Positions 1-16,736 of a stretch of DNA of 41,387 nucleotides are shown here, in pieces. Each line of letters opens with the position of its first letter. Position 1 is the first letter of the stretch. The notes under the pieces were generated by a model. The model was given only the letters and a program-made list of their open reading frames with translations. It was not told the DNA's origin and did no database searches. The DNA lies in the NCBI GenBank assembly GCA_016787285.1, contig JAEUUV010000101.1:1-41387 (forward strand), read 5' to 3'. Source of the DNA: Saprospiraceae bacterium (GTDB lineage: Bacteria; Bacteroidota; Bacteroidia; Chitinophagales; Saprospiraceae). Made by a program: the position numbers and the translations under genes.

Positions 1-3000
1 GCAACTTCGATTTCCACGCTTCCACTTACCCCGGTCTCCACTTCCATCGAGAGTTCCGTGGTTTTGCACACTTTTTCGGTCTTTTCAATATACGATGAAC
101 TGCCATCGCCCGGCGGGTCGCGCAGGATAACGGAAGGCATCATCGGCATCATCGTCGTGAAGGTGTTCAGTTTGTTCCGAACGCCGGTTACGATGGCCTG
201 TGTCACCAAACTGCCGATGCGCCCCGCCGGTACGGAGGTGGCGATGACCTGCATGGTCTTGATGTACGGCGGCGAGGGGTTGGGGTTGCCCACCAGAAAC
301 TTGTACTCGAGGTTGCCGCCGCTCATGGTCGTGTCGAGCGTCATGTCGGCAAAACCATTGATGATTTCAATATTAGCAGTGTCCAGGTAGCAGATACCGT
401 CGTCCGACGGCGTGGCGATGTAGGTTTCCTTGACCCGGATGTTCACCGTGACGTATTCGCCTTTGTCCAAAACGATCACCTCCGGGCTACATCCCGGTAC
501 GGGGTCTAATCCGCTGGAAATTTCTACTTCCGGCGGCGCCACATAAATAAAATCAATGATTGTGTCGGTTTTGGTCAGGTTGACGGTAGAGCCACCCTGT
601 ACCTGGAAGGCGGTTTTGACATCGTCGTCGGAGTGTTCGATAACGGCCACGGTCATTTGTTCGAGCGGCGGCAGTTCCAGAAACTCAAATTCGCCCTCCT
701 GATTGTCTATGGTGATGGTTCGGGTCAAACAGCCATCCACCGAACGCACTTCCACTACGCACACCGTACCCTGGTTTTGGGCATCTCCGGCGGGCGCTTT
801 GATGATGGATTTTTTGCAGCCCGGCTTGCTGCCGCCGGCTACCTGGCCGCTCACCTTTCGCGTGGTCATGTCGTTGAACAAAATGCCGGTGATGGGGGTG
901 TTCACATCGGTCACCTGCCAGAACGCCGGTTCAAAAATGTGGTCTTCAAATACCGGGCGAAGTTCGGCACTGGTTCCAGGGTCGAAGTCAATGGTGAACT
1001 TGCCGGTGGAATCCGTGAAGATGCGCGGCGTGAACGGCGCGCCGTTGACCAATATCTCCACGTTTTTGGCGAAGCAATCGGTGTTTTTATACCGTACAAA
1101 ACCGGTAACGGGTATGGCCGAGCGGTCCAAAAAGTCCACTTGGTCCACCGAAGTTACACTTGGATTCAGGGTTACCTGCCGGGTGACGGGGGTAAAAATG
1201 TGCGGCGTGGTCATCTGCCGGGAAGCGAAGGGGATCCAATCGGCGCCGAAGTTGGTGCCGAAAGGCAGCAATACCGAGCCGCTGTTGTTCAGGCGGTTGC
1301 CGTTGCCCTCGTTAATGCCAAAATAGACACGCAAGCCTTTGGCCTGCATGTCGCGCGGATTCTGGAAGTGATTGAGAATCGCGGTGGCGCTCAGGGTAGT
1401 GTCGTACAGTGCTACCTCGTCAATGAGGCCACCGAAGTGGTCGGTACGGCCAATACCGCTGGGGCGGGCGGCAAGCATCCAGGATTCGGCCGGATCCGAC
1501 CAGTTACCGGTAACGCCGATAAAGGTCTTGCTGCCGAGGGGAACGCCGTTTTTGTAAGCGGTCACCAATAATTCGTTGTCGGTAAGCGTGGTGTCCAGGG
1601 TGAATGCCAGATGCTGGTAGCCCATGCCCAGGTCTCCAAAATTGTGTTCCTGGCCATTGATGTAAAACCAGAGGTCATTCATCAAGCCGTTTTGCTTGAG
1701 CAAAAGGCGGAAATCGTTGCCCAGCCAACGCTTGCTGAGGACGCATTGCTCGCCATCAGGGCCGGCGCTGTTCACCCACAGTTCCAACGTGGCTTTGGGA
1801 GTCACGGAAAAGTCGGGCAATTCGGCATAATCTTCTTCGCTGCGCACAAACTTGAGCGCCCGGTACATGTAAAAGTCCTTCATAGGCTCGGCCAGAAAGG
1901 TCGTGCCGGTGCCGTAACTGGCCGATTCAATGCGGTAGTAGCCGTCCTGATTGGTTTTGCCCATGGTGCGTACGTTCGGGCGATCCAGTTTGAATGTGGA
2001 ACCGCAGAGGTACAATTTGTGGCGCTTGATAATGTCGAACGATTTCACGCCTTTTTCCTCGTCAAACTTCCAGTAGTGGGTCAGATTGGGTGTCAGGCTG
2101 GAAGCGGTACCCATGATCACTTCACCGAAATCAAGTTCGTCGAGACGGCGGTGGTAGATGCGCACTTCGTCGAGACAGCCGGTCCAGCCGCCGGTACCGG
2201 TCCTGCTGCCGAAGTTCAGTTCGGAGGCGGAGGGCAGAAGGGTCATCGGCGCTAGGCCGACGAGTACGCCGTCAAGGTATAGTCTGCCCTGTCCGTCCTC
2301 GTAGGTGAGCGCCACGTGGTGCCAGTCGTTTTGGGTGCCGTTGGGAAATGTGGCCGAGAGAAACGGCGCGCCGGTTTCGGTGGTAGCCACCTCAACGCCT
2401 TTGCTGCCGCCGCTGTCCACGGCCCGAAAGTGGAGCGGGAACGGAGCGAAAGCCGCCACGCCGGCATTGGTGGTCGCCGAGTCGGTTTTCATCCAGAACG
2501 CCACCGTCCAGTCGGTGCCGGAAGCGGGCAGGAAGGGCTTTGTGGTGGTGTCTTGTTCGGCAAAGGCGCCGTCGGCGGGGCCAAATTTGGCCGAAAAACC
2601 CTGCAACGGTGTGAGCGACACGAGCACATCGGGCACGGGGCTGCCGCTGCCGGTCTGTACCCAGCCGGTGACGGTTCCGTTGGGCACCTGAAAACCGATG
2701 GCCTTGCCCGGGGAGCCTTCTCCGTAGATGTTGATGCCGCGCACCTCATAGTTGTACGCGATACCGGCGATGACGTTGAAGTCGTTGTACGTGCGGATGT
2801 TGGGGCCTACGTTGGCCAAAAATACGCCGTCGCGGTAGATGTTGAAGCCGTCGTTGGGCGATGGGCCGAGCGCGTCAATTTCCCAGGTCAACTGGATGCG
2901 GTCGAGCAGGTCGCCCTGCGTGGCGGTGAGCGCCAGGGCAAAGGGCGGCAGCAGGTACCGGGAATAAAAGCCCAGGGTAGAGGTTTGCTCCAGGCCGTCG

Positions 3001-3218
3001 AGGAATCCCACAAAGGTTTGGCCGACGGCTAAGGCCATTTTATTCTTCTGGCTGGTCAGGCGGGCCTTGCTTCCGAAATTGAAAAAGGCAGTACCGGTGA
3101 AGCCACTGGTGTCCACGACCGCATCGGGTCCGCAGGTGACCTGGGCCGACAGCGGCAATGCAGCGGCAACGTACAGAAATAGAAAAAGTAAACGTGTATA
3201 AATCAGGCGCATGACCAT
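1..3218 (-). CDS. Large secreted LamG-domain protein, N-terminal 1072 residues (C-terminus outside window)
   Basis: The frame stays open from an ATG at 3218 to the left edge, so the gene is partial. The N-terminus has a Sec signal peptide: hydrophobic LLFLFLYVAAALPLSAQ followed by VTCG. A second in-frame ATG at 3212 is an equally possible start. In order I read a fibronectin-III-like region (about residues 85-170), a short carboxypeptidase-regulatory-like strand region (about 180-210), a first LamG/concanavalin-like domain (about 205-365, with NDWHHVALTY and LYLDGVLVG), a second LamG domain (about 450-620, ending GGLIDEVALYD), then Ig-like or carboxypeptidase-regulatory modules (from about 695). 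Such mosaics are usually exported surface proteins of Bacteroidota, often with a type IX secretion C-terminal domain. That end lies outside the window, so the secretion route is inference. The ligand is unknown. Upstream (3219-3290) I see no clear -7 box or SD. Confidence 0.85.
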   Translation of the reverse strand, partial: MVMRLIYTRLLFLFLYVAAALPLSAQVTCGPDAVVDTSGFTGTAFFNFGSKARLTSQKNKMALAVGQTFVGFLDGLEQTSTLGFYSRYLLPPFALALTATQGDLLDRIQLTWEIDALGPSPNDGFNIYRDGVFLANVGPNIRTYNDFNVIAGIAYNYEVRGINIYGEGSPGKAIGFQVPNGTVTGWVQTGSGSPVPDVLVSLTPLQGFSAKFGPADGAFAEQDTTTKPFLPASGTDWTVAFWMKTDSATTNAGVAAFAPFPLHFRAVDSGGSKGVEVATTETGAPFLSATFPNGTQNDWHHVALTYEDGQGRLYLDGVLVGLAPMTLLPSASELNFGSRTGTGGWTGCLDEVRIYHRRLDELDFGEVIMGTASSLTPNLTHYWKFDEEKGVKSFDIIKRHKLYLCGSTFKLDRPNVRTMGKTNQDGYYRIESASYGTGTTFLAEPMKDFYMYRALKFVRSEEDYAELPDFSVTPKATLELWVNSAGPDGEQCVLSKRWLGNDFRLLLKQNGLMNDLWFYINGQEHNFGDLGMGYQHLAFTLDTTLTDNELLVTAYKNGVPLGSKTFIGVTGNWSDPAESWMLAARPSGIGRTDHFGGLIDEVALYDTTLSATAILNHFQNPRDMQAKGLRVYFGINEGNGNRLNNSGSVLLPFGTNFGADWIPFASRQMTTPHIFTPVTRQVTLNPSVTSVDQVDFLDRSAIPVTGFVRYKNTDCFAKNVEILVNGAPFTPRIFTDSTGKFTIDFDPGTSAELRPVFEDHIFEPAFWQVTDVNTPITGILFNDMTTRKVSGQVAGGSKPGCKKSIIKAPAGDAQNQGTVCVVEVRSVDGCLTRTITIDNQEGEFEFLELPPLEQMTVAVIEHSDDDVKTAFQVQGGSTVNLTKTDTIIDFIYVAPPEVEISSGLDPVPGCSPEVIVLDKGEYVTVNIRVKETYIATPSDDGICYLDTANIEIINGFADMTLDTTMSGGNLEYKFLVGNPNPSPPYIKTMQVIATSVPAGRIGSLVTQAIVTGVRNKLNTFTTMMPMMPSVILRDPPGDGSSSYIEKTEKVCKTTELSMEVETGVSGSVEIEV

Positions 3219-3290
3219 GCTTTTTTTGTGTGACTATAAAAAACAGTAATAACCGGGGTGACCGGCAGTCACCCTGTCACTTGCGGGAGA

Positions 3291-4598
3291 TTACTTCACC
3301 CAAATTTCGATAGCGCCTATGGCGAATTGTTCATTGTCCTCGCCTTCGTCATTTGCATACCCAAAGTATAGCCAGAACGACGAATTGCGCTTGGCGATCA
3401 TGGTGCCGGTAGTCCACTGATCGGACACATTGTCGGGCACGTTGTCGAAACTGCTGGCGGTGCGGAAGGCGTCGTTGTTGTAGTTGTGGGTGTTGGAGTG
3501 GTGCTGCGGGTGCCAGTCCCAGGCAATGCGTATTCCGGTGCCGGCCGAGTTGTTCGCAAATGCCGCAAAGCCAACTGAAGCCGCATCGCCGTGATCCCAG
3601 TTGCCAATGGCAAAAAATTTGAACACGACCTTGACAAAGTTGTAAGTGCCTGGGGGCGAAAATTGCTTTTTGAACACATAGTCGTTGGTGGCAGGCTTGA
3701 GTGCCCAACCGGCGAAATCGCCGTAGTTTACGGCGGAGGCGGCGGAAATTAAACCATTGTTCCAGGCGCCGTTGCCGCCGCTTGTGGGAGCCGAAACGAA
3801 CCAACCATCATTGCTTCCTCCTTCAAAATAATTAGTCTCTACCAGGCGCCAGTCGTTTTGGCCGTTGTACGACAGGCTGCCGTTGTTGTTGATGCCCACA
3901 CTGTTGGCGTTCATGCTTCCGCTTACGGTCACGTTACCGGGTGTGGCGGCCAGCACTTCAGCGTTATTGGCATACAGTGAAACTCTACCGTCGGCAGTGG
4001 AGAACAGGCCGCTGTCTTTATCGCCGCTGTTGCCGTCGAAGGCATAGCCGTTGTTGTTGGCGCCGTTCAGGCCGGGCGTGCCGCCGCGCGCCAGATAACC
4101 GCCTACGGCCACCACGCTGTGCGTGGTGGGGAAGTTGCCGCCCACCACCAGATTCGTAGCAATCCGGGCGCTGTCGGCTACTACTCCGCCGCTGCTGGGA
4201 AACTTGTTGTTCACGCCGATCAGCGAGAGCGCATACGGCGCCGACGTGAGCAGCACGCGCGGGTTTAGTTCGGTGGAGCCTACCGTCACACCGAGGTAGT
4301 ACAACTGATCGAAGGCCGCTGTGAGCGGATTTACGGCTCCCAGTACGGCATTGTAGATGCCGCTGCTGACTTCAATACCGGCCTGAGTCTCTTGCCAAAC
4401 AACGGAGCCGCCGGTTTCCTGCGTGTATAATTTGAAGGTCAGGCTGTACGTCCCGTCATCCACGGCTACGCCGTTGGATTTTTTCAGGATACCCTGAATA
4501 CTAAGCGTCGGATTGGCTTGGGCCTGGAGGGTGTTCGTGGCCGAAACACATACTCCCAAAAGGAGCAAATACGCCAAACGAATGGAAGTGCTTTTCAT
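3291..4598 (-). CDS. Secreted tail-fibre-like repeat protein, copy A of a tandem pair
   Basis: The product is 435 residues starting at the ATG at 4598. A longer open frame to 4685 would place 29 hydrophilic residues in front of the signal peptide and is rejected. Residues 1-25 form a Sec signal peptide (LAYLLLLGVCVSA...QAQA). Next is a module beginning LSIQGILKKSNGVAVDDGTY, a type common at the N-terminus of Bacteroidota tail-fibre-like proteins. A middle segment carries GYAFDGNSGDKDSGLF, which resembles phage tail-fibre shaft repeats. The C-terminal ~170 residues are rich in aromatic residues (FKFFAIGNWD, WDWHP, FWLYFGYAND) and end EIWVK, suggesting a beta-sandwich binding domain. It is closely similar over its whole length to the upstream gene at 4743-6056, so the pair is a tandem duplication. 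No enzymatic motif is visible and the function is unknown. Confidence 0.85.
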   Translation of the reverse strand: MKSTSIRLAYLLLLGVCVSATNTLQAQANPTLSIQGILKKSNGVAVDDGTYSLTFKLYTQETGGSVVWQETQAGIEVSSGIYNAVLGAVNPLTAAFDQLYYLGVTVGSTELNPRVLLTSAPYALSLIGVNNKFPSSGGVVADSARIATNLVVGGNFPTTHSVVAVGGYLARGGTPGLNGANNNGYAFDGNSGDKDSGLFSTADGRVSLYANNAEVLAATPGNVTVSGSMNANSVGINNNGSLSYNGQNDWRLVETNYFEGGSNDGWFVSAPTSGGNGAWNNGLISAASAVNYGDFAGWALKPATNDYVFKKQFSPPGTYNFVKVVFKFFAIGNWDHGDAASVGFAAFANNSAGTGIRIAWDWHPQHHSNTHNYNNDAFRTASSFDNVPDNVSDQWTTGTMIAKRNSSFWLYFGYANDEGEDNEQFAIGAIEIWVK

Positions 4599-6191: not shown

Positions 6192-6824
6192 TCACCGATC
6201 CAGCATTCTGCGAATCAGTTCGCTTTTGCTGTTGATATTCAATGCTCTGTAGATGCTCATTACATGGCTGCGCACCGTGTCCAAGGAGATACCGAGGCGC
6301 TCGGCAATCAATTTGTAACTAAGTCCGTCTACAATGCCCTGCACAATGTCTCGCTGTCGGGGCGTAAGCGCTACCTCCGCTACTTCTGGTTTAGGCTGGA
6401 AACGGGCGATGACTTTGCGGGCTACTGCGGGTGACATGTAGGCGCCGCCTTTCCGGACGGTAAGCAAGGCATCCCGGATTTCCGTCAGCGGCGTCTGCTT
6501 GGTAATGTACGAGCAGGCGCCGGCACAAAGCGCAGCGAAAATCTGGTCGCTGTCCTCAAACGTGGTCAGGATGACGATATCTACAAGGGGTAATCGTTCC
6601 CGAATTGCCGGGATACCGGAGATGCCCGACACTCCGGGCAGTTGAATATCCAGGAGCAATACATCCGGTTCGGGCCGGATGACATCGCTCATTTGATGCA
6701 GAAAAACCTCTACAGAAGATGCTGTGCTATGCACGAGAAACTCCGGAGAAGTACTGAAAAACGCGATCAAACTCTCGCGCACTACACTGTTATCTTCGAT
6801 TATAGCCAATTGAATCGGTTCCAT
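6192..6824 (-). CDS. NarL/FixJ-family response regulator (REC + LuxR-type HTH)
   Basis: The product is 210 residues, the usual length for the family. The REC domain covers about 1-125: acidic pair E10-D11, phospho-acceptor D59 in LLLDIQLPG, conserved T87/T88 and K109. The LuxR-type helix-turn-helix covers about 147-210 (LTPRQRDIVQGIVDGLSYKL, then IAERLGIS..TVRSHVMSIY). It is a cytoplasmic DNA-binding regulator activated by phosphorylation. The likely partner kinase is the divergent gene at 6947-10069. The start at 6824 is supported by a -7 box ending 4 nt upstream, which implies a leaderless transcript. Likely targets are its own divergent region and perhaps the secreted proteins downstream; the latter is inference. 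Confidence 0.93.
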   Translation of the reverse strand: MEPIQLAIIEDNSVVRESLIAFFSTSPEFLVHSTASSVEVFLHQMSDVIRPEPDVLLLDIQLPGVSGISGIPAIRERLPLVDIVILTTFEDSDQIFAALCAGACSYITKQTPLTEIRDALLTVRKGGAYMSPAVARKVIARFQPKPEVAEVALTPRQRDIVQGIVDGLSYKLIAERLGISLDTVRSHVMSIYRALNINSKSELIRRMLDR

Positions 6825-6946: not shown

Positions 6947-9900
6947 ATGCGCACACGCTTCCGAGATCAACCCGGCCCAAATGAGACGTATACGTACAGT
7001 GTGAATTTGTTCTGGCCGGGATGGTTTTACCCTGTCACAGGATGCGTGGCAATACTGCTTGCCATGCTTCCTGCCCTGCTGTGCGCCCAGCATCCGATTC
7101 GTATCGGGACACTTTCGAAAAACGACGGTTTGGGTTTCCGGAAGGTAAATGCCATCGCGCAGGACAGCCGGGGCTTGATTTGGTTGGGCACTTCGCAGGG
7201 TCTCGAGCGCTATGATGGGCATAGTTTTGTTCGCCTTGGCAACAACAAGCAGGCCGACTACTTTTTCCCGGGCGGAGAGGTGTCCGATGAAAGTTTGCAG
7301 GTGCTGAATGATTCCACCTTCTGGCTTATCGCCGACGGGAAACTGTACTCCTTTGCCCCATTCACATTCCAGGCAAAAGACATTTCCTCCCTTGCCGGGG
7401 TAAAAGGCGTTTTTTGTGCGCTGAAGAAAGGATCCGACGGCAAAATCTGGGCAGTTGTGGACGATGACACCCGACAATACCTGCTGTGTTGCGACAACAC
7501 CGGGCGTTTCCGATGCGTAGCCCGGTCTCCGCATATTCGACAACCGTTCACCTCAATTGCGCCCGACAACGCGGGCAATGTCTGGTGGAGCACGATAGCC
7601 GACGGTTTGCGTTTGTACGACCCCGAGGGCCAACTTCTGCACGCCGTCAAGCCCGACAGCAATATCTGGTTCGGCACCAAAATGTACTTCACGGAGATAT
7701 TCGCCGACAGCCGGGGGCGCGTATTCGTATTTCCGAAAAGTAAAAAAGAAATCTGGCAGTACGACCCGCAGCGACGGAGCCATACGGTATTGGTCAAAAA
7801 TATGGACGGGCTGACGTATGTGGCTTGTGAAGATCGAAACGGCAATTTGTGGTTTTCGCAGTTGAGCGGATTGCTCTGCTGGAACAAGGGTGAAGGAACT
7901 TCCTGGACTGATTTTACCCCGGATATCCGGCAAACCATGCAGTTTTCCGCCATTCATGCCATGCTTGAAGACCAGGCAGGGTTGATTTGGGTGACTACCG
8001 ACAACGGCCTCTTCAAAATTCCTGCAGGGCACCAGGTTTTTCAAAGCCACTTTTCGGAACCCGGCGCACGCTGGGGCAATGGTATGCGCGGAATTTTCCA
8101 GGACACCTCCGGCAATATTTTTTTCTACTGCGAAACCGGACCAAGGGGATTGTACCGGCTGGATACCCGGAGCGGTTCGGTGCAATTGATTGATCCTTTT
8201 GGAAATCCCCACGATCCACACTATGGACTGCCGAATGCCCAGATGTTTATCGTGGACGAAAAAACCAACTCTGCCTGGACAATGGCCGACCGGCTGGTAC
8301 GCATCAATCTTCATACAGGCAAAGGGACTGTGGCGGCTGAAATAACCGATAAAACGGAAATTATTTCCCGAAACCCGATTATACGACTTCGAAACGGCTG
8401 TTGGTTGCTGGGCAAACTTCTGGATAAACTGACGCTTGTAGATGTGGCAACCGGCGCCCAACAAAAGGTGCCATTGGCGCTCAATTCCGAAGATAAGGCC
8501 GTCAAAGTGACGTGTTTTTTGGAAAATCCGGACGGCAGCATCTGGGTGGGCACTACCGGTGGCTTGTTTAGGATACGCCCGGATGGTACGCTGCTGGAGC
8601 GTTTTTCCACAACATCCGTCCCGGCGCTTGGCAGCGATCACCTGCTGGCCCTGCATGCAGATAACGCCGGGCGACTCTGGATCGGTACCTTCGGCGGCGG
8701 GTTGAATTGCCTCGAAACGAATAGTAATAGCGGAAAAAGAAACCTGCGGATTTTTACACAACGCAACGGCCTTTGCGACGACAATGTGGCCTCCATTCTG
8801 GAAGACGATGCAGGCAACATCTGGTCCGGTACCTACAACGGACTTGCTTGCTACCGCACCCGGTCGGGCGTATTTCAAAATTTTTTTGAAGAGGACGGGC
8901 TGCCGTCAAATGAATTCAACTATGCCTCGGCACTCAAGGATCGCGACGGGCTGCTCTGGTTCGGGGGCATGAACGGTGTAGTGGTTTTTGACCCTGAGGC
9001 GACGCTGACCATCCCGAAAAATCCGCCGATCGTCCTGACATATTTTTCCCGGTATAATGCCCGTCAAGGCGGGATCGAAAAATCACATCTTTTGCCGGCC
9101 GAATATGGGTCGCTGCCGTTCGTCATCCGTCCCGACGATGCCTGGTTCGAGTTTGGCTGGGCATTGCCAAACTACATGAACCCGTCCAAAAACCAGTACC
9201 GTGTCTGGCTCGAAGGCCTGGAAGAACACTGGAACTTCATCGGCGGTACGCCTTTGGTGCGGTACAACCACCTGCCTCCAGGTTCATACACCCTGCACAT
9301 CAAGGGGGCCGACAGCAAGGGCAACCCCGGCGTCAATGAACTGAAGGTTCCGATTGTTGTGCGACCGTATTTTTACCAAACCTGGTGGTTTTTCCTCCTG
9401 GTATTGGCTCTTGTGGCGGCCATCGTTTATTATGCTGTTCGTTTCCGTTACTTGCGCCGACTCGAAATGGAGCAATTGCGTACCCGGATTGCCGGCGATC
9501 TGCACGATGAGGTCGGCTCCATGCTGGCCGGGTTGGCCATGCAGGCCGATTTGCTGGCGCATCAATCAACGACAGACAAGGCGCAGGCGGGTAGGGTAGG
9601 GGAGATCAGTAGGGCCGCTATGTCCAAAATGCGCGACCTCGTGTGGGGGCTCGACAGCCGCCGCGACCGCGTGCGCAACCTCCTGGAGCGCATGCAAGAA
9701 CAAGCCGCCGAACTGCTTGGGCCGGCAGGGATTGCGTTCCGTTTCGAACTCGGAAGCCTGCCGTTGGAGAAAAAAATCCCTGTGGACGTCCGCCAAAACC
9801 TGTACCTTATTTTTAAAGAGGCACTGACCAACGTGGTGCGGCACAGCACCGCAACCGAAGTGCGTGTGCGTTTCGGGTACTTTGAGGAGAGTTTCGAACT

Positions 9901-10069
9901 GTCTATTTACGACAACGGAGTACCCACCCAAAAACAAAACCCGGCACGCATTTCCACCGGACTGGGTTTGTCCAACATGGAAATGCGTGCGCGGGCCATC
10001 GGCTGCTCCTTCAGCGCAGGGCTGGGAGAATCGGGATTTGGGGTTCGGGTGGTTGGGAAAGGGGTGTAG
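6947..10069 (+). CDS. Propeller-sensor histidine kinase (Reg_prop/Y_Y_Y/HisKA_3/HATPase_c)
   Basis: The product is 1040 residues. A hydrophobic segment (about 28-47, AILLAMLPALLCAQ) exports the sensor half. Residues ~55-680 carry repeated propeller blades of the two-component-regulator-propeller type (INAIAQD-like starts, GLIWLGTSQGL, GNLWFSQLSGL, GRLWIGTFGGG). A Y_Y_Y-like beta domain follows (about 735-805, YRVWLEGLEEHW, LPPGSYTLHIKG). A transmembrane helix starts at W813. The HisKA_3 box has phospho-accepting H853 in GDLHDEVGSM, and a GHKL ATPase domain ends the protein (NVVRHS, DNG, GLGLSNM). It should sense a ligand in the periplasm and phosphorylate the divergent NarL-type regulator. 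Unlike HTCS hybrids it has no own receiver or DNA-binding domain. The stop is 6 nt from the convergent gene at 10076. Confidence 0.93.
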   Translation: MRTRFRDQPGPNETYTYSVNLFWPGWFYPVTGCVAILLAMLPALLCAQHPIRIGTLSKNDGLGFRKVNAIAQDSRGLIWLGTSQGLERYDGHSFVRLGNNKQADYFFPGGEVSDESLQVLNDSTFWLIADGKLYSFAPFTFQAKDISSLAGVKGVFCALKKGSDGKIWAVVDDDTRQYLLCCDNTGRFRCVARSPHIRQPFTSIAPDNAGNVWWSTIADGLRLYDPEGQLLHAVKPDSNIWFGTKMYFTEIFADSRGRVFVFPKSKKEIWQYDPQRRSHTVLVKNMDGLTYVACEDRNGNLWFSQLSGLLCWNKGEGTSWTDFTPDIRQTMQFSAIHAMLEDQAGLIWVTTDNGLFKIPAGHQVFQSHFSEPGARWGNGMRGIFQDTSGNIFFYCETGPRGLYRLDTRSGSVQLIDPFGNPHDPHYGLPNAQMFIVDEKTNSAWTMADRLVRINLHTGKGTVAAEITDKTEIISRNPIIRLRNGCWLLGKLLDKLTLVDVATGAQQKVPLALNSEDKAVKVTCFLENPDGSIWVGTTGGLFRIRPDGTLLERFSTTSVPALGSDHLLALHADNAGRLWIGTFGGGLNCLETNSNSGKRNLRIFTQRNGLCDDNVASILEDDAGNIWSGTYNGLACYRTRSGVFQNFFEEDGLPSNEFNYASALKDRDGLLWFGGMNGVVVFDPEATLTIPKNPPIVLTYFSRYNARQGGIEKSHLLPAEYGSLPFVIRPDDAWFEFGWALPNYMNPSKNQYRVWLEGLEEHWNFIGGTPLVRYNHLPPGSYTLHIKGADSKGNPGVNELKVPIVVRPYFYQTWWFFLLVLALVAAIVYYAVRFRYLRRLEMEQLRTRIAGDLHDEVGSMLAGLAMQADLLAHQSTTDKAQAGRVGEISRAAMSKMRDLVWGLDSRRDRVRNLLERMQEQAAELLGPAGIAFRFELGSLPLEKKIPVDVRQNLYLIFKEALTNVVRHSTATEVRVRFGYFEESFELSIYDNGVPTQKQNPARISTGLGLSNMEMRARAIGCSFSAGLGESGFGVRVVGKGV

Positions 10070-10075
10070 CCAACC

Positions 10076-12352
10076 TCAATTCCCGCAGCCCCCCGAAATC
10101 GTCACATTGAACACACAGGTGGCTTCCTGGCCGTCGGTATTAGTCACGGTGAGACGAATGGCTACCGTGCCGGGATTGAACACGGTGCCCTGTGCGGGTA
10201 CCTGTGTGACCGGGTTGAGCGGCGCCCCGCAGCCGCCGTTGGCGGTGGCCAGCGCGGTGTAGTCGCCGATGGAGGCGCGGCAGTTGCTGTCGGCGGTCAG
10301 TGCCGGCACAGAAGCCGGGCAGGTGATGACCAAGGGCGCATTTTCGTCTACCGAGCCGTCGCAATCATTGTCAATGCCGTCGCAGAGTTCGGCGGCGCCG
10401 GGGTTGATGTCCGGGTTGTTGTCGTCGCAGTCGGCAGGAACGGCATAGCCGTCGCCGTCGTTGTCGTTGCAGCCTTCGTCGGTGGTGCCGTCGCAGTTGT
10501 TGTCGAGGCCGTCGCAAATCTCAACGGCATCAGGGTTGATGGCGGCATTGTTGTCATCACAATCGCTTGTGGTTTGAAACCCGTCTCCGTCAACATCACA
10601 TACAGCAGGTTCGTCTATTTCTCCATTGCAGTTGTTATCTATGCCGTCGTCACAAATTTCAGCAGCAGCAGGATTGAGTACCGGATTGGTATCATCACAG
10701 TCGTCCGGAAAAGAATAGCCGTCGCCGTCGGCATCAATACCGCAGCCGCCCGCTCCGTTTGCACAGAAGGCGGCGAAGTTGCCGTTAAGGTGGAGGCCGG
10801 CATTTTCATAGAATGCATAATTAACATTACAAAAATTTGCCAGATTTGGGTCAAAGCAACCGGAGAGGTGGTTAAAAGCTAAATCTATAAATGTCAAATT
10901 ATTTAAACTTCCCAGTGATCCTGGAATTGGGCCACTTAACTGGTTAGAGGAAAATTGCATGAATTGTAAATTCGCAAGGTTGCCCATTGTAGCCGGTAGC
11001 ATTCCGGAAAGTTGATTACTGCCCATGAATAAAAACTTCAGGTTTGTTAAATTTCCAATTGATGAGGGAATGCTTCCGCTCAGGAGGTTGCCCCCCAGGT
11101 TCAAGTATTCCATTTTGGTTAAATTCCCAATAGACGAAGGGATGCTCCCTGTGATTTGATTGCCTTGAAAATCTATGCCGCTTAACTCCGTCAGATTTCC
11201 TATTTCATTGGGTAATGGCCCCGACAAATTATTATTATTGAGTACCAATGAAACTACTCTTCCGCTTCCCGGGGGATCACACGTAACACCGTACCATTCA
11301 TCCACATTACAATCCGTCCCCGCCGCGCCATCTATCCAGCCGGTATTGTTAAACCAATTCGCCCCATCCGTACTGTTATACAGCGCCATAAGCGCGTCGT
11401 AGTCCGGGTGTTCGTCGGGTGTGCCGGGATTGCAATCGTCGTCCACATTGTTGCAGAGGATTTCAGTAGCTCCAGGGTTTACAGCTGCATCGCCATCATC
11501 ACAATCCGTGTTATCCGACACATACCCTGCCCCGCAGGAGCCAGCGAAATTTTGTGGCGTGCCGGGGTCGCCGTAGCCGTCGCCGTCGGTGTCGGCGTAG
11601 CAGGTGACGGGCGGTGCGCATATCAACTCAATGGGCGTACCGGCGCCTCCATTCCAAATGGAAGCCACTTCGGCATTGCTGAGACCGAAGTCCCAGATGG
11701 CGATGTCGTCCATTCTTCCATTCACGGGGAACTGCTGGCCTCCGTCCCGTTCGCCTATGCGCAGTGGTTTGCCGTTGTCGGCAAAGGCTGGGCCTCCCGA
11801 AAAGGTGCCGACGACGGTGCCATCGAGGAAAAAATTAATGTCAGTGCCGCTTTTGCGAACCAGGACGTGGTGCCAGTTATTGATGGTGAATGGCAGGGCT
11901 GCTGTCTGGGGGTTGAAGTCGCCCCCGGCAAGTAATAGTTCGTTGCCGACCTTTTTGGTGAGCGTCCAGCCGGGGCCACAGCAGCCGTCCCATTTTTCAA
12001 TGAGTACTTGTTCATCGGTGAGGCTGTTGAAATTGACCCAAAGCGAAATAGTAAAATCGTTGCCGCCGAAGTCGAAAGCATTGTCGTCGCCGGGGCGGGT
12101 GGCATATTTCGAAGCGTCATTGGGCAAATCAAGTGCAGAGCCGAACTTGCCCCCTGCAAAACCGGCGCCGCCCGCCAGCGACAAATCGTAACCGGAACCC
12201 GATGCATCCGTGCCATCGCCGTCCATCTTCCAGTAGGCAATAGGCGAGTAAACGTTGACAGGGGGCTGGATCGGGCCGTTTATATTGACCGTTTTTGCAA
12301 ATACGGGGAAGAATGCTCCTAGGGAGCAAAAAAGCGTAAAAAGACTTTTCAT
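10076..12352 (-). CDS. Secreted LamG / MopE-like / leucine-rich-repeat / HYR mosaic protein
   Basis: The product is 758 residues from the ATG at 12352, where a signal peptide begins (LFTLFCSLGAFFPVFA). The open frame extends 30 codons further upstream without signal features. Modules in order are: LamG domain (about 38-240; YWKMDGDGTD, NNWHHVLVRK, DDIAIWD); one MopE-type Asp/Cys motif (about 255-310; DTDGDGYGDP, NTDCDDGDAAVNPGATE); plant-type LRRs with an N-cap (about 310-525; repeated SGSIPSSIGNLT); three further MopE-like motifs (about 536-672; DCDDNN..NPGA.E.CDG.DN.CDG); and a C-terminal HYR-like domain (about 673-758). MopE-type motifs are known as Ca/Cu-binding surface modules. No type IX sorting domain is visible. 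The gene is co-directional with the kinase at 12516 and carries a 16-bp palindromic motif upstream. Confidence 0.88.
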   Translation of the reverse strand: MKSLFTLFCSLGAFFPVFAKTVNINGPIQPPVNVYSPIAYWKMDGDGTDASGSGYDLSLAGGAGFAGGKFGSALDLPNDASKYATRPGDDNAFDFGGNDFTISLWVNFNSLTDEQVLIEKWDGCCGPGWTLTKKVGNELLLAGGDFNPQTAALPFTINNWHHVLVRKSGTDINFFLDGTVVGTFSGGPAFADNGKPLRIGERDGGQQFPVNGRMDDIAIWDFGLSNAEVASIWNGGAGTPIELICAPPVTCYADTDGDGYGDPGTPQNFAGSCGAGYVSDNTDCDDGDAAVNPGATEILCNNVDDDCNPGTPDEHPDYDALMALYNSTDGANWFNNTGWIDGAAGTDCNVDEWYGVTCDPPGSGRVVSLVLNNNNLSGPLPNEIGNLTELSGIDFQGNQITGSIPSSIGNLTKMEYLNLGGNLLSGSIPSSIGNLTNLKFLFMGSNQLSGMLPATMGNLANLQFMQFSSNQLSGPIPGSLGSLNNLTFIDLAFNHLSGCFDPNLANFCNVNYAFYENAGLHLNGNFAAFCANGAGGCGIDADGDGYSFPDDCDDTNPVLNPAAAEICDDGIDNNCNGEIDEPAVCDVDGDGFQTTSDCDDNNAAINPDAVEICDGLDNNCDGTTDEGCNDNDGDGYAVPADCDDNNPDINPGAAELCDGIDNDCDGSVDENAPLVITCPASVPALTADSNCRASIGDYTALATANGGCGAPLNPVTQVPAQGTVFNPGTVAIRLTVTNTDGQEATCVFNVTISGGCGN

Positions 12353-12414
12353 AAGTACAGGATGATCGTGAAAAAATGCGGGTTCATACGCCGCACAGCG
12401 CCGGCTTGCCGGAG

Positions 12415-12469
12415 CGTTCGGGCGCCACAAAGTTCCGGGCAATCTTGTAGCGGGATAGCCGCCCGAACG
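12415..12469. repeat. 10-bp inverted repeat in the kinase/LRR-protein intergenic gap
   Basis: CGTTCGGGCG at 12415-12424 and CGCCCGAACG at 12460-12469 are exact reverse complements with a 35-nt loop. The 163-nt gap (12353-12515) holds this repeat and the motif at 12482-12497 but no clear TAnnTTTG box. Confidence 0.5.
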
Positions 12470-12515: not shown

Positions 12516-14471
12516 TCATTTCACGCCAAAAACCACCCGAACCAAGGTGCCTTGCCTTTCGGCGCTTTGCACCCGTAGTTCGCCGCCCAGCAGCGCCGCC
12601 CGTGCCGCCATGTTGTTCAGTCCGTTGCCGTGCGAAGCGGTTGCCGGGTCGAAGCCGCTGCCGTTGTCGGCCACTTCGAGTGCAAGTTTTTTGCCTTCCC
12701 GGTACATGCGGATGTGTACTTCTGTGGCGTCGGCATATTTGGCGGCGTTGTTCAGGGCCTCTTTGACGATCAGGTACAAGTGGCGGCGGGCATCGAGGTC
12801 GGGCTTCAGGTCGGATACGCCCGGACCAATTTCAAAATGCAGATGTATATGGGTGTCCTCGAACAATTCGGCGGCGAAACGGCGGATTCGGACAAGCAGT
12901 TCATCCATGGAGTCGGAATCGGGATGCAGGCTCCAGGTCAGGTCGCGCACCTTGGACGACACGGTTTGCGCTTCGGCGCTGATTCGGGCGAGGACTTCGC
13001 GCATTCTGTCCGGCTCGCCGATTTGCGCGGCCAACATGCCGTTCATGGCGATGCTGCTGAGGGCCGAACCGAGGTCGTCGTGCAGGTCGCGGCTGATGCG
13101 GGCACGCAGGGCGGCAAGGCGTCGCTCCTGGATGCGCCGCCAGCCCATCCGACCGGCAATGCCACCCAGTGCGGCGAGGGCGATCAACAACGCGATAAGC
13201 AACTGTTGGCGTTGGTTTTGGGCTTGGTGCAGGGCATTTTCGTGGTGAAGCAAGGCGATGGACTCCGCTTTTCGGGTGTTTTCGAGGGCTGCGCCCGCCA
13301 GTTCGATACGAGCGCTCTGGATGGCGCAGGTGTCCAGTTCGCGTTGAGCGGCCATGAGGCGCAGCAGGTTGTCGCGGCGCTCGGCCTCGGTTCGAGCTTC
13401 GAGCAGGGCGCGTTCGCGCTGCTGGATGGCGAGGGCGGATTGGGCCTTTTGTTGTTCATTTTGGGCGTTGAGCAACTCTACCTGGCGCCGTTGGTCGCGG
13501 GTTTTATACTCCGCCTCCATGCGGCTGTTTTCTTCCGAGCTGCGCAAGGAGGCCAATTCTTCGCGCAGGTGGTGGTAACGGTTCAGGTGTTCGGCAGCGT
13601 TTCTGTTGTCGTTTAGGCTCAGGTAGTAGCGGTACAATGCAAATGCTGCATTGGCTTTTTGTGGCAGGTTGGGCCTTTTTTGGGCCAGGGTATTTGCCTT
13701 CACAAGCGTTTGGCCCAGGCTCTCTTGCCCGAGCGCGCAGTTTGACGGGACAGGTAAATTCTTGTCCCGTGCTTTTTCCATTTCAACATACAAATCCATG
13801 ACACACAAGGCGATGTTGTCCGACCAACCCGTATTGCCTGTTTTTTGAGCCTGACCAGCTGCTGTGGTAAGCAGGGTGCAGGCTGTTTGATAGTCGCCCT
13901 GTCGTGTGGCTACCTGTCCGTTCAGAACAGTTAGGGGAAACTGCGCATGTGGGTGGTTTAATGCACGCAGTTTTTTAACGAATCCAGGGACTTCCGTCGT
14001 AGCATCCGGAATGGGGCCATACAGGTAACATTGAGCGATCTGGTAGTACAGCATAGCCATGTTAAACGTGTCCCGCAGTGCAGCATAACAGGGTATTGCC
14101 CGGAAATAATAAGCGGAGGCATCCTGGTATTTCCACGACGTGAACAAGGCATTGCCCATATTGGCGCACAGGGCTGCGATGCACAAGGTATCGTGCCGAT
14201 ACTCGGCCAACGACAGACAATTTTGGTAAACCTGTATGGCTTCTCGCGACCTGCCGGAGAGATAAAGGAATGTTCCTCTGTTGATGTAGTTGGCAAGAGA
14301 AACGGCATTGCCTGCCCGTTGTTGGTCGGCCAACACGCTGTCGGTGATGTGCAGGGCCAGTTCATACGCACCATTTTTGATGCTGTTTTGTAGCGTGGCT
14401 GCATAGTCCGACTGAGCGTTGAGCAGGGGCGAGATTCCGGCTGAAAGAAAAAAAAAGCAGAGTTGGCGCAT
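12516..14471 (-). CDS. TPR-sensor histidine kinase (HisKA_3/HATPase_c)
   Basis: The product is 651 residues with a signal peptide (LCFFFLSAGISPLLNAQ). Residues ~20-310 are TPR-like helical repeats (LANYINRGTFLYLSGRSREA, IAALCANMGNALF, MLYYQIAQCYLY). A long coiled coil rich in Q, E and R follows (about 320-415). One transmembrane helix spans about 423-443 (LLIALLIALAALGGIAG). The HisKA_3 box RISRDLHDDLGSALS has phospho-accepting H464. The ATPase domain carries EALNNAAKYA, DNGSGFD and GNGLNNM. The periplasmic TPR domain probably senses a peptide or partner protein. The ATG is 12 nt downstream of the stop of the regulator-beta-helix fusion, so the two genes are almost certainly co-transcribed and the fusion's REC domain is the probable phosphate acceptor. 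Confidence 0.92.
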   Translation of the reverse strand: MRQLCFFFLSAGISPLLNAQSDYAATLQNSIKNGAYELALHITDSVLADQQRAGNAVSLANYINRGTFLYLSGRSREAIQVYQNCLSLAEYRHDTLCIAALCANMGNALFTSWKYQDASAYYFRAIPCYAALRDTFNMAMLYYQIAQCYLYGPIPDATTEVPGFVKKLRALNHPHAQFPLTVLNGQVATRQGDYQTACTLLTTAAGQAQKTGNTGWSDNIALCVMDLYVEMEKARDKNLPVPSNCALGQESLGQTLVKANTLAQKRPNLPQKANAAFALYRYYLSLNDNRNAAEHLNRYHHLREELASLRSSEENSRMEAEYKTRDQRRQVELLNAQNEQQKAQSALAIQQRERALLEARTEAERRDNLLRLMAAQRELDTCAIQSARIELAGAALENTRKAESIALLHHENALHQAQNQRQQLLIALLIALAALGGIAGRMGWRRIQERRLAALRARISRDLHDDLGSALSSIAMNGMLAAQIGEPDRMREVLARISAEAQTVSSKVRDLTWSLHPDSDSMDELLVRIRRFAAELFEDTHIHLHFEIGPGVSDLKPDLDARRHLYLIVKEALNNAAKYADATEVHIRMYREGKKLALEVADNGSGFDPATASHGNGLNNMAARAALLGGELRVQSAERQGTLVRVVFGVK

Positions 14472-14483
14472 ACAAGTGGCAAT

Positions 14484-16700
14484 TCAGTTGCCAAAAGTAT
14501 GGAAGATTCGGTTTCCATTTTCATCGGTGACCCAGCGGCCGGGTTCGTTCAAACGGATTTCCGGGAATGGTTGGTCAATCAAATGCACAAGTCCGACCGC
14601 GCCTTCTATTTGCGTTTTGTTGTTTTCCTTAAGCAAACAACCGTTTAAAATCAAAGGTTTGTGCATGGAATTCAGGTAAATGGCATCGCCTGTTTTCGCC
14701 TTGTTGGCATCGAAAATAACGTCGTAAAACGAGACAGGTACAGGGTCTGTTTGATCGCTTTCCATATAAAAGGCACCGCCTGCGCCATCGGTTTCATTAT
14801 CGGCAAACCGGCACTGTGTGACCCAAAAAGTGGTCAACGAGTCGGGTTCATTAAGAAAGAGGGCGGCAATAGCGCCACCGGCTGCCTTGATCGTTTGCCC
14901 GCTGTTTATCCAATCCGTACGCGCAATTGTGCCGCCCGAAAGCGCCTTGTTTCCCGTAAAAGTACAGTGTTGAAGGTTGGTGGCTACGCCCGTCAGCGGA
15001 TCCGACAATTGGCAAATAGCGCCACCCAAACCGCCGCTCCGGTTGCCAGCAAACAGGCAGTTTTTAATATCAACGACCGACTGCTTTTTTATATGGTCTG
15101 CAGCATTTAACTGAATGCTGACGGCGCCGCCGTGGTCCGTTGCATGGTTGTTGTTGAATCTGCAATCCGTCATTTCGATGATGAACCCCGCTCGTCGCAG
15201 TCGAAAAACATGAACAGCGCCGCCGTTTTTTGCCCGGTTGTTTTCAAATGTGCAGTTTTTTATGGTTAGTCGGTCATTTTGAGAAAAGTTGGAAACAAAA
15301 TAAATGGCGCCACCTATGCTTGGGCCATAGTTGCCGATCTGGGCAGCGTTATTGTGAAATTCACTATTGTGTATTTCCAGACTACATGATCCATGGCCTG
15401 TGAAACAGGTGATGGCACCGCCTTCTGAACCGTTATTCCCCCAAAAGCTAGTTTCATTGAGGTAAATCTCAATTTTTCCGCCACCCATCGCCTGAAAACA
15501 CAGGGCGCCACCAGTGTTTTCTGATTTATTCCCCTGAAACAAACAATGGGTCAAACGTATGCTTGCCGTATTGAATGCGCCTACGGATTCAAAATAAAGC
15601 GCACCGCCAAAATCTCGTGGCCGCTTTTGACCATTAGCGTTGCCATCAACAATGAAAAAACCGTCAACAACTACATTTTCAACATTTTGAGCGCATAAGA
15701 TGTGGTAAGCATTGGCGCCGCCGCCGATTTTCCCGGTCAGGGTTGTCCGATTGTCACCATACCAAATGGGATTGCGCTGTTCAAGATGCTCCTCCCAACC
15801 TCCAAAGGCCCCATACAGGCCGACGCCACTTATCAATTCAAAAGAAATATCCCGGTTGTCGGTTTTTGTAGGTGCATACACCCCCCGCGCCACCCACACC
15901 TCGTCGCCCGCCCGGGCTGCCCGCAGCCCGTCCTGCAAGTCGGGAAAAGCATCCGCCCAGTTCAAACCCGAGTTGGCGCCGCCGGCATCGGCTTTTACAT
16001 GCCATACCCGGGCATGTAGGTGGAGTGGAAATAGTGCCACGGCGAGCGCCAACACCACCGATACAAACCGCTCCAGAATCGCCTTGGCCACCGCTTCGGG
16101 CGCCGATTGTACCTGGAGTTTTTTGTAGATTTTTTTCAGGTGAAACTTTACCGTGTTGATGCTGATGCCGATTTCGGATGCCACCATTTTGTAGGAGTAC
16201 CCTTTCGACAGCCAGCGCAGCACCTCGATTTCCTTGTCGCTCAGATCCACTTCGGCGCCGGCGGTCGGGGGGCTGGATTTGAAAAAATCAATCATCCGCC
16301 TTGCGATGTAGGGCGACATATTGGCGCCGCCGGCCATCACTTCGTGGATGGAGCCGGTCAGTTTTTCGAGCGAGGTGTTCATTTTTAGCAAGTACCCGTC
16401 CGGGCCGATGGACATGGCCCTGAAAATTTTTTCGTCGTCGTCGAAGACGGTCAAAATCACCACCTTGACTTCCGGGAATTTGCTTTTGACTATTGTAGTG
16501 CCTTCCAGCCCGTTCACGTATGGCATGTCAATATCCATGAGCACCAGGTCTGGTTTCAGGATTTCGACGTGCTGCGCTACATTCCGGCAATCTGAAAACG
16601 CCCCAACGAGGTTCAGGCCGTCGGTGGCGGCCACATAACGGCTCAGGCTGTCCCGGTAGTTGTTGTCGTCGTCGTAAATCAGTATGGATATTGGTTTCAT
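14484..16700 (-). CDS. Response regulator fused to an exported beta-helix protein (REC-LuxR HTH-TM/signal-parallel beta-helix)
   Basis: The product is 738 residues from the ATG at 16700. An upstream in-frame ATG at 16736 is rejected because the promoter overlaps it. Residues 1-120 form a complete REC domain: acidic D10-D12, phospho-acceptor D56 in LVLMDIDMP, T84 and K106. Residues ~152-210 form a LuxR-type HTH (LSDKEIEVLRWLSKGYSYKM, INTVKFHLKKIYKKL). Immediately after R211 comes a hydrophobic run (VSVVLALAVALFPLHLHA, 213-230) that looks like a signal peptide core with a cleavage site after HLHA. Residues ~234-738 are a right-handed parallel beta-helix of the choice-of-anchor/Pmp-like type (WADAFPDLQDGL, then repeated NN.A..GGA motifs). 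I see no frameshift and no credible internal start; only GTG215, GTG216 and TTG217 occur, without basic residues. Membrane topology N-in/C-out is inferred. Partner kinase: 12516-14471. Confidence 0.88.
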   Translation of the reverse strand: MKPISILIYDDDNNYRDSLSRYVAATDGLNLVGAFSDCRNVAQHVEILKPDLVLMDIDMPYVNGLEGTTIVKSKFPEVKVVILTVFDDDEKIFRAMSIGPDGYLLKMNTSLEKLTGSIHEVMAGGANMSPYIARRMIDFFKSSPPTAGAEVDLSDKEIEVLRWLSKGYSYKMVASEIGISINTVKFHLKKIYKKLQVQSAPEAVAKAILERFVSVVLALAVALFPLHLHARVWHVKADAGGANSGLNWADAFPDLQDGLRAARAGDEVWVARGVYAPTKTDNRDISFELISGVGLYGAFGGWEEHLEQRNPIWYGDNRTTLTGKIGGGANAYHILCAQNVENVVVDGFFIVDGNANGQKRPRDFGGALYFESVGAFNTASIRLTHCLFQGNKSENTGGALCFQAMGGGKIEIYLNETSFWGNNGSEGGAITCFTGHGSCSLEIHNSEFHNNAAQIGNYGPSIGGAIYFVSNFSQNDRLTIKNCTFENNRAKNGGAVHVFRLRRAGFIIEMTDCRFNNNHATDHGGAVSIQLNAADHIKKQSVVDIKNCLFAGNRSGGLGGAICQLSDPLTGVATNLQHCTFTGNKALSGGTIARTDWINSGQTIKAAGGAIAALFLNEPDSLTTFWVTQCRFADNETDGAGGAFYMESDQTDPVPVSFYDVIFDANKAKTGDAIYLNSMHKPLILNGCLLKENNKTQIEGAVGLVHLIDQPFPEIRLNEPGRWVTDENGNRIFHTFGN

Positions 16701-16705
16701 ACGGC

Positions 16706-16736
16706 CAAAAGTATGGTGTCTGTGTAGCGGCGGCAA
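16706..16736 (-). promoter_or_regulatory. Promoter of the regulator-beta-helix fusion gene
   Basis: On the minus strand GGTTG (TTG at 16734-16736) is followed after 20 nt by a perfect -7 box TACTTTTG (16706-16713). The box ends 5 nt before the ATG at 16700, predicting a leaderless mRNA and fixing the start codon there. Confidence 0.65.

Follow-up and report, generated by a model that had tools for sequence, protein, structure and literature searches.

On the minus strand of a 41,387-nt contig of a Saprospiraceae bacterium (assembly GCA_016787285.1, contig JAEUUV010000101.1; this whole stretch is the window below), an open frame of 738 codons runs uninterrupted from an ATG at 16700 to a stop at 14484 and encodes a response regulator, a signal-peptide-like hydrophobic stretch and a parallel beta-helix as a single protein. 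The interpretation that we favor is a lineage-private, in-frame fusion in which the regulator is carried as a cytoplasmic extension of a signal peptide that is then cleaved, and we put its probability somewhat below one half (about 0.45). That the fused gene itself is real, we judge at roughly two in three. An earlier interpretation made from the letters alone (the sequence-only reading) had given the same open frame without its strand, and its description of a receiver (REC) domain and a LuxR-type helix-turn-helix (HTH) joined without a linker to a signal-like stretch and a beta-helix of ~500 residues agrees with our analysis.

The regulator half is a complete NarL-type response regulator, with REC followed by a C-terminal GerE HTH. 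The phosphorylatable Asp and the switch residues are intact in REC, namely D56, T84 and K106, as listed earlier, plus the acidic D10-D12. The solved chains nearest to REC are VraR and NarL by sequence and LiaR, DesR and VraR by fold, and when the fused-protein model was submitted to Foldseek, the 50 matches listed were regulators only. That AlphaFold2 model, built on 11 aligned rows, contains the REC fold (10-residue blocks of 73-94 over residues 1-120) and short strands recurring over ~378-700, where the best blocks reach 97 but those at 601-620 only 24-26. Both halves belong to curated families and have many homologs, well above chance. In the Pfam scan no HisKA or HATPase domain was found in the 738-aa protein; the kinase is a separate gene. 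A recent duplication of either half was rejected on the basis of the closest in-genome paralogs, which reach at most 34% for the regulator and 42% for the beta-helix (over residues 222-402).

The position of the join was located by comparison with homologous regulators. The fetched loci gave 38 distinct matches, and the 29 with a query start <15 and an end >195 were kept. In 10 of the 29 the last residue corresponds to 213, and in 28 it falls within 209-217; the one outlier, the distant protein L079, has a long tail outside the alignment. Unlike these NarL/FixJ homologs, which stop just past the HTH, the fused frame runs on to residue 738, and there is no linker, codon 213 being GTA and codon 214 TCG. 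In-frame ATG codons are absent from codons 172-260, and the alternative in-frame starts near the junction are GTG at 173, 204, 215, 216 and 221 and TTG at 217, 246 and 255. A complete regulator directly meets an apparent signal peptide that lacks a Met-Lys/Arg of its own, and the arrangement is not one of random read-through into a spacer.

The G+C content at third codon positions (GC3) is steady over the join (0.73 for codons 141-213 and 0.70 for codons 214-283) and falls to 0.43-0.60 only past residue 283. The 221 bases spanning the junction are single copy in the genome, and repeat-driven misassembly was rejected on that ground: with one copy of the junction DNA and no close paralog of the regulator or the beta-helix, such a misjoin would have no visible template. 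As to how the stop codon could have been lost, one point mutation was considered because TCG214 lies at the expected stop and differs from TAG by one base. We favor this less than a short deletion, because after a point mutation the signal peptide would presumably start at or after GTG215 and have no basic n-region.

Residues 212-226 (FVSVVLALAVALFPL) form the most hydrophobic 15-residue window of the protein (Kyte-Doolittle mean 2.7), with HLHA following at 227-230, so that the stretch ends in LHLHA; Pro225 lies within the hydrophobic core. When the beta-helix half was compared with the open reading frames (ORFs) of relatives, 45 rows representing 34 distinct homologs were obtained. The BLAST alignment begins no more than 7 residues from V213 in 16 of the 34, and in 13 of these 16 it begins at homolog residues 3-9; in the other 18 it begins further on, 17 times within 28 residues of V213 and once at 132. 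Many of the stand-alone homologs begin near the equivalent of the junction with M-K/R (e.g., MRHILLSIAACIFPLSNFLHAQNIWHV, compared with VSVVLALAVALFPLHLHARVWHV in the fused protein). The hydrophobic stretch looks like the counterpart of their signal peptides. Cleavage after A230 seems likelier than a stable anchor, given a short hydrophobic core with an alanine site at its end. Both outcomes proposed in the sequence-only reading, a tethered regulator or a precursor cut by signal peptidase, are compatible with the sequence, and the second is the one we judge likelier.

The C-terminal part carries Chlam_PMP repeats (Pfam, 1.6e-14). In a set of 24 sequences (the fused half and 23 homologs) scanned for sorting tails, choice_anch_Q was matched in 18, the type IX secretion system (T9SS) tail TIGR04183 in 17 and Pfam Por_Secre_tail in 10, and the fused half was in none of the three groups. 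Neither TIGR04183 nor PF18962 matched the fused protein at E 1e-3, and hence no T9SS sorting domain was detected. A product without a T9SS tail is expected to remain in the periplasm, so that periplasmic retention fits the lack of a detected tail in a protein most of whose set has one. Short beta-helix proteins of a PorP/SprF-adjacent family were weighed as the donor of the fused half. Its two aligned members (L064 and L065) show 36 and 35% identity to the fused half, compared with 25-34% for the other 21 homologs, but no synteny link was found.

Taken as a real gene, the frame suggests the following course of events. The regulator would have lost its stop codon, and a neighboring gene for a secreted beta-helix its first codons, which fused the two in frame. 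The regulator would then be expressed in a single chain with the beta-helix, presumably from a transcript shared with the kinase gene, as a long cytoplasmic N-terminal extension of the signal peptide. Residues 212-226, with positive charges before them, would direct the chain to Sec and insert it into the membrane while the regulator stays inside; signal peptidase I would cut most likely after A230, releasing a soluble periplasmic beta-helix. A phosphorylatable regulator would be left on a short stub at the inner membrane, near the membrane kinase encoded 12 nt downstream, with which it might pair and from where it might bind DNA. A further consequence, which we consider rather unlikely, is that one precursor yields membrane-retained regulator and periplasmic beta-helix in a strict 1:1 ratio, with export determining where the regulator is and perhaps how active it is.

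We searched for the fusion in other genomes with a junction query (residues 130-340) run on 42 genomes of the genus, 298 of the family, 396 of the order, 395 of the class and 395 of the phylum; these sets share members with one another and contain the genome of the window, and at most 1,318 others were covered. The whole fused protein was also searched in 100 relatives. Except in the genus junction search, scoring took in 7 to 11 candidates per genome, and ten partly spanning matches were opened. The junction query detects fusions to the beta-helix and would overlook those to another exported domain. The window itself scored 475.8 bits over query positions 1-211; the next best among the matches listed reached 105.6 bits and covers 76-207 only, and many regulator-type matches meet a stop at about residues 213-218. 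A separate scan of genome contigs (30 loci, which may omit records of the window's own genome) listed no match that went on from the regulator deep into the beta-helix; L082, at 153-238, extended the most. Of the ten opened matches, in which the beta-helix alignment extends into the regulator segment of the query, only one has a genuine LuxR HTH. The other nine, with no LuxR HTH in the upstream sequence, look like chance extensions and were set aside. As a separate observation, in G140:C194 an ORF with REC and an AraC-type HTH (L146:167-865) ends 228 nt before an exported beta-helix ORF on the same strand (L146:1094-2374).

The genuine case, G648:C61, comes from another family of the same class and matches the junction query with 81.7 bits over positions 22-200, with one TAA. 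As in the fused gene, an exported beta-helix directly follows a LuxR/GerE HTH in the same frame; G648:C61 differs in being a two-gene version of the same part order, in which a 60-aa HTH-only protein without REC ends at the TAA and a 15-nt spacer precedes a 1619-aa beta-helix protein with its own ATG. G648 is thus evidence in two directions, for a natural origin of the fused gene and for a two-gene state.

Several observations weigh against the favored fusion. No uninterrupted regulator-beta-helix fusion was found among the matches listed from the at most 1,318 other genomes, so the several independent genomes with the same junction that the sequence-only reading had looked for did not emerge; the fusion is known uninterrupted from a single draft, which has 345 contigs and is 96.65% complete. 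In G648, the only opened match with both parts genuine, a stop and a separate ATG split the two. The earlier text had named both kinds of result as refuting the fusion, and both were seen in part: no listed match in another genome shows it, and the stop with a separate ATG belongs to a distant case and not to the same gene. In a tree of 28 regulator homologs and the fused one (L079 left out), the fused regulator has no resolved orthologue (branch 0.86), and there is therefore no sign of selection keeping the fused form. AlphaFold2 confidence for residues 197-340, which include the junction, is below 50 and lends none to the join. The hydrophobic core of ~15 residues fits a cleavable signal peptide and is short for a stable anchor. 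Finally, the clean loss of stop, spacer and start is also the expected look of an assembly or sequencing deletion.

The last point leads to the strongest rival, in which the organism has two ordinary genes, for a soluble regulator ending near V213 and for a secreted beta-helix with its own start, and the consensus lacks a short segment that contained the stop, spacer and start. We take this possibility seriously, at clearly less than even odds. It would account for an unbroken frame confined to the genome of the window and for two genes that are both complete up to the join, given where nearly all regulator homologs end and where many beta-helix proteins start; the spaced gene pair of G648 and the draft state of the assembly also speak for it. 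It is harder to reconcile with the kept reading frame, a 1-in-3 chance, with the absence of a second genomic copy of the junction DNA and the continuous GC3, and with the placement of the fused frame on the strand of the kinase, just ahead of it. The kept frame, the single-copy junction, the continuous GC3 and the lack of close paralogs are likewise the evidence that favors a real fusion. A single draft assembly cannot tell a private fusion from an assembly deletion.

A second rival keeps the fused gene and dispenses with cleavage, and here known membrane-bound regulators are the natural comparison. ToxR/CadC one-component regulators have a cytoplasmic DNA-binding domain, a hydrophobic segment and a periplasmic domain, as the fused protein would, and differ from it in a winged HTH of another family and in having no receiver domain. 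Bacteroides hybrid two-component systems are also membrane-bound transcription factors with a receiver; in them the sensor, kinase, receiver and AraC-type HTH are combined in one chain with the output domain at the C-terminus. Among soluble proteins, NarL/FixJ regulators (VraR, LiaR, NarL and DesR) share REC, the GerE HTH and the catalytic residues, whereas the fused protein has 525 more residues after the point at which they end. Stand-alone secreted Chlam_PMP/choice-of-anchor Q proteins of the same genus and family share the signal peptide and, of the beta-helix, the N-terminal half. Each has a start codon of its own, and most of those in the scanned set of 24 carry choice_anch_Q and a T9SS tail, neither of which was detected in the fused protein.

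According to a published survey (PMC10269533), transmembrane transcription regulators (TTRs) are widespread, response-regulator domains occur in 9.2% of them, and hybrid TTRs are enriched in Bacteroidota and judged recent and unconserved, whether within a genus, a class or a phylum. Hybrid TTRs resemble the fused protein in combining a DNA-binding domain and a receiver domain in one chain, and their membrane segment may have a counterpart in its hydrophobic stretch; the fused protein differs in having no kinase domain, in its order of REC, HTH, signal stretch and exported beta-helix, and in a stretch that looks cleavable. They are the closest published class, and judged from its content the fused gene would fall near it. 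The sequence-only reading knew of no described system with this order of parts, which calls for a correction: receiver-bearing membrane regulators are a described class (PMC10269533). No description of a protein with REC, LuxR HTH and exported beta-helix was found among the titles listed from the literature searched, which covered few subscription papers.

The rival would make the fused protein a ToxR/CadC-like hybrid TTR with a receiver, uncleaved, with residues 212-230 as the anchor and the beta-helix serving in the periplasm as a sensor or scaffold. The charge pattern suits an N-in topology, the T9SS tail was not found, a TPR-bearing kinase adjoins, and the receiver is the commonest non-DNA-binding domain of published TTRs (PMC10269533). 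The short core, Pro225 and a cleavage-like LHA motif, as in the signal peptides of the homologs, do not suit an anchor, and we regard this rival as improbable. Still less probable is that one frame gives two products, the beta-helix being made also or mainly from an internal start at GTG204 (MAKAILERFVSVVLALAVALFPLHLHA) and exported normally with the read-through regulator as a by-product: GTG204 is in frame, K206 and R211 precede the hydrophobic stretch, and GTG opens stand-alone short homologs in 10 of 12 loci by a mechanical first-start rule, but there is no evidence of initiation at GTG204 and the regulator would still always be fused.

Regulator-kinase pairs in relatives bear on how the favored fusion could arise. 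In a locus of the same genus (L066, G022:C50), a regulator occupies 1477-2127 and a TPR-HisKA_3-HATPase kinase begins at 2165; when the 42 genus genomes were searched for the kinase, G022:C50 gave the top match outside the window's own genome (8.6e-53). In a locus of the same order (L067, G062:C12) a regulator at 2786-3418 is followed by a kinase of the same composition; neither has a beta-helix between. Other regulator homologs of the genus sit after a kinase (e.g., G033:C581, G016:C220, G030:C525, G034:C51 and G027:C185). The regulator stop is separated from an in-frame kinase or Reg_prop ORF by 9 nt in L067, 3 nt in L142 (an ORF truncated at the contig end, Reg_prop only) and 12 nt in L143. 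The spacing in these loci and in G648 suggests that one stop loss or short deletion could fuse a regulator to a membrane sensor or an export signal.

The kinase ORF of the window starts at 14471, 12 nt downstream of the fused-frame stop on the same strand, as had been reported, and has a hydrophobic segment at about 424-442, judged by hydropathy only. The self-contained circuit proposed earlier finds no support other than this adjacent kinase, a usual neighbor of such regulators. Features and their coordinates are collected in Table 1. Two exact copies of a 13-nt direct repeat lie 2214 nt apart; they are the 2 zero-mismatch matches in the window, and at <=2 mismatches 7 matches were found against 1.47 expected. 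Both contain TACTTTTG, which we take to resemble the Bacteroidota -7 element, and the pair could be paired promoters or regulator sites.

Table 1 Features of the fused gene, its surroundings and related loci.
Feature	Position	Strand	Basis or remark
Regulator, signal-peptide-like stretch and beta-helix in a single frame, 738 aa	14484..16700	-	Open frame and translation
REC domain, residues 6-108	16377..16685	-	Pfam PF00072 Response_reg, 9e-18
LuxR/GerE HTH, residues 153-206	16083..16244	-	Pfam PF00196, 8.8e-16
V213 (GTA) then S214 (TCG, one base from TAG)	16059..16064	-	Codons; V213 is the commonest homolog end
Signal-peptide-like stretch, residues 212-230 (FVSVVLALAVALFPLHLHA)	16011..16067	-	Hydropathy maximum; putative cleavage after A230
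Parallel beta-helix, residues 231-738 (about 508 residues)	14487..16010	-	Chlam_PMP/POMP repeats only; strand repeats in model
Histidine kinase, 651 aa	12516..14471	-	Signal-peptide-like start, TPR, HisKA_3, HATPase_c
13-nt direct repeat CCATACTTTTGGC	16704..16716	-	3 nt before regulator ATG
Second exact copy of CCATACTTTTGGC	14490..14502	-	Beta-helix 3' end, 18 nt before kinase ATG
G648 LuxR-HTH-only gene, 60 aa	L156:4276-4458		GerE domain 1e-18, TAA stop
G648 exported beta-helix gene, 1619 aa	L156:4474-9333		Own ATG, same frame and strand, 15 nt after HTH gene
Short exported beta-helix genes	L130:3113-4093; L131:3341-4345; L133:3965-4960; L134:3471-4463		
Short exported beta-helix genes	L137:3785-4732; L139:3850-4836; L140:3122-4117		

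The window also holds a second, divergent pair, a REC-GerE regulator at 6192-6824 (-) and a Reg_prop-Y_Y_Y-HisKA_3 kinase at 6947-10069 (+), and, downstream of the kinase that adjoins the fused gene, a gene at 10076-12442 (-) whose product carries Laminin_G_3 and LRR along with four MopE-type Cu-binding motifs. In the relatives, short exported beta-helix proteins of 315-334 aa with a GTG start recur as a family in seven loci, in six of which (not L130) the neighboring gene is presumably PorP/SprF-like, judging from its sequence.

With a clean join in the sequence and no unbroken counterpart among the matches listed from other genomes, either a private fusion or an assembly error could underlie the fused gene. 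Should it prove to be an assembly deletion, it would caution that a domain fusion seen in a single draft genome needs the support of reads. If the fusion is real, it would be a natural experiment on a soluble response regulator placed ahead of a signal peptide, bearing on whether one chain can combine phosphorylation and DNA binding with export and on the origin of receiver-bearing membrane regulators, for which in-frame neighbors 3-15 nt apart (L067, L142, L143 and L156) would offer a cheap route.
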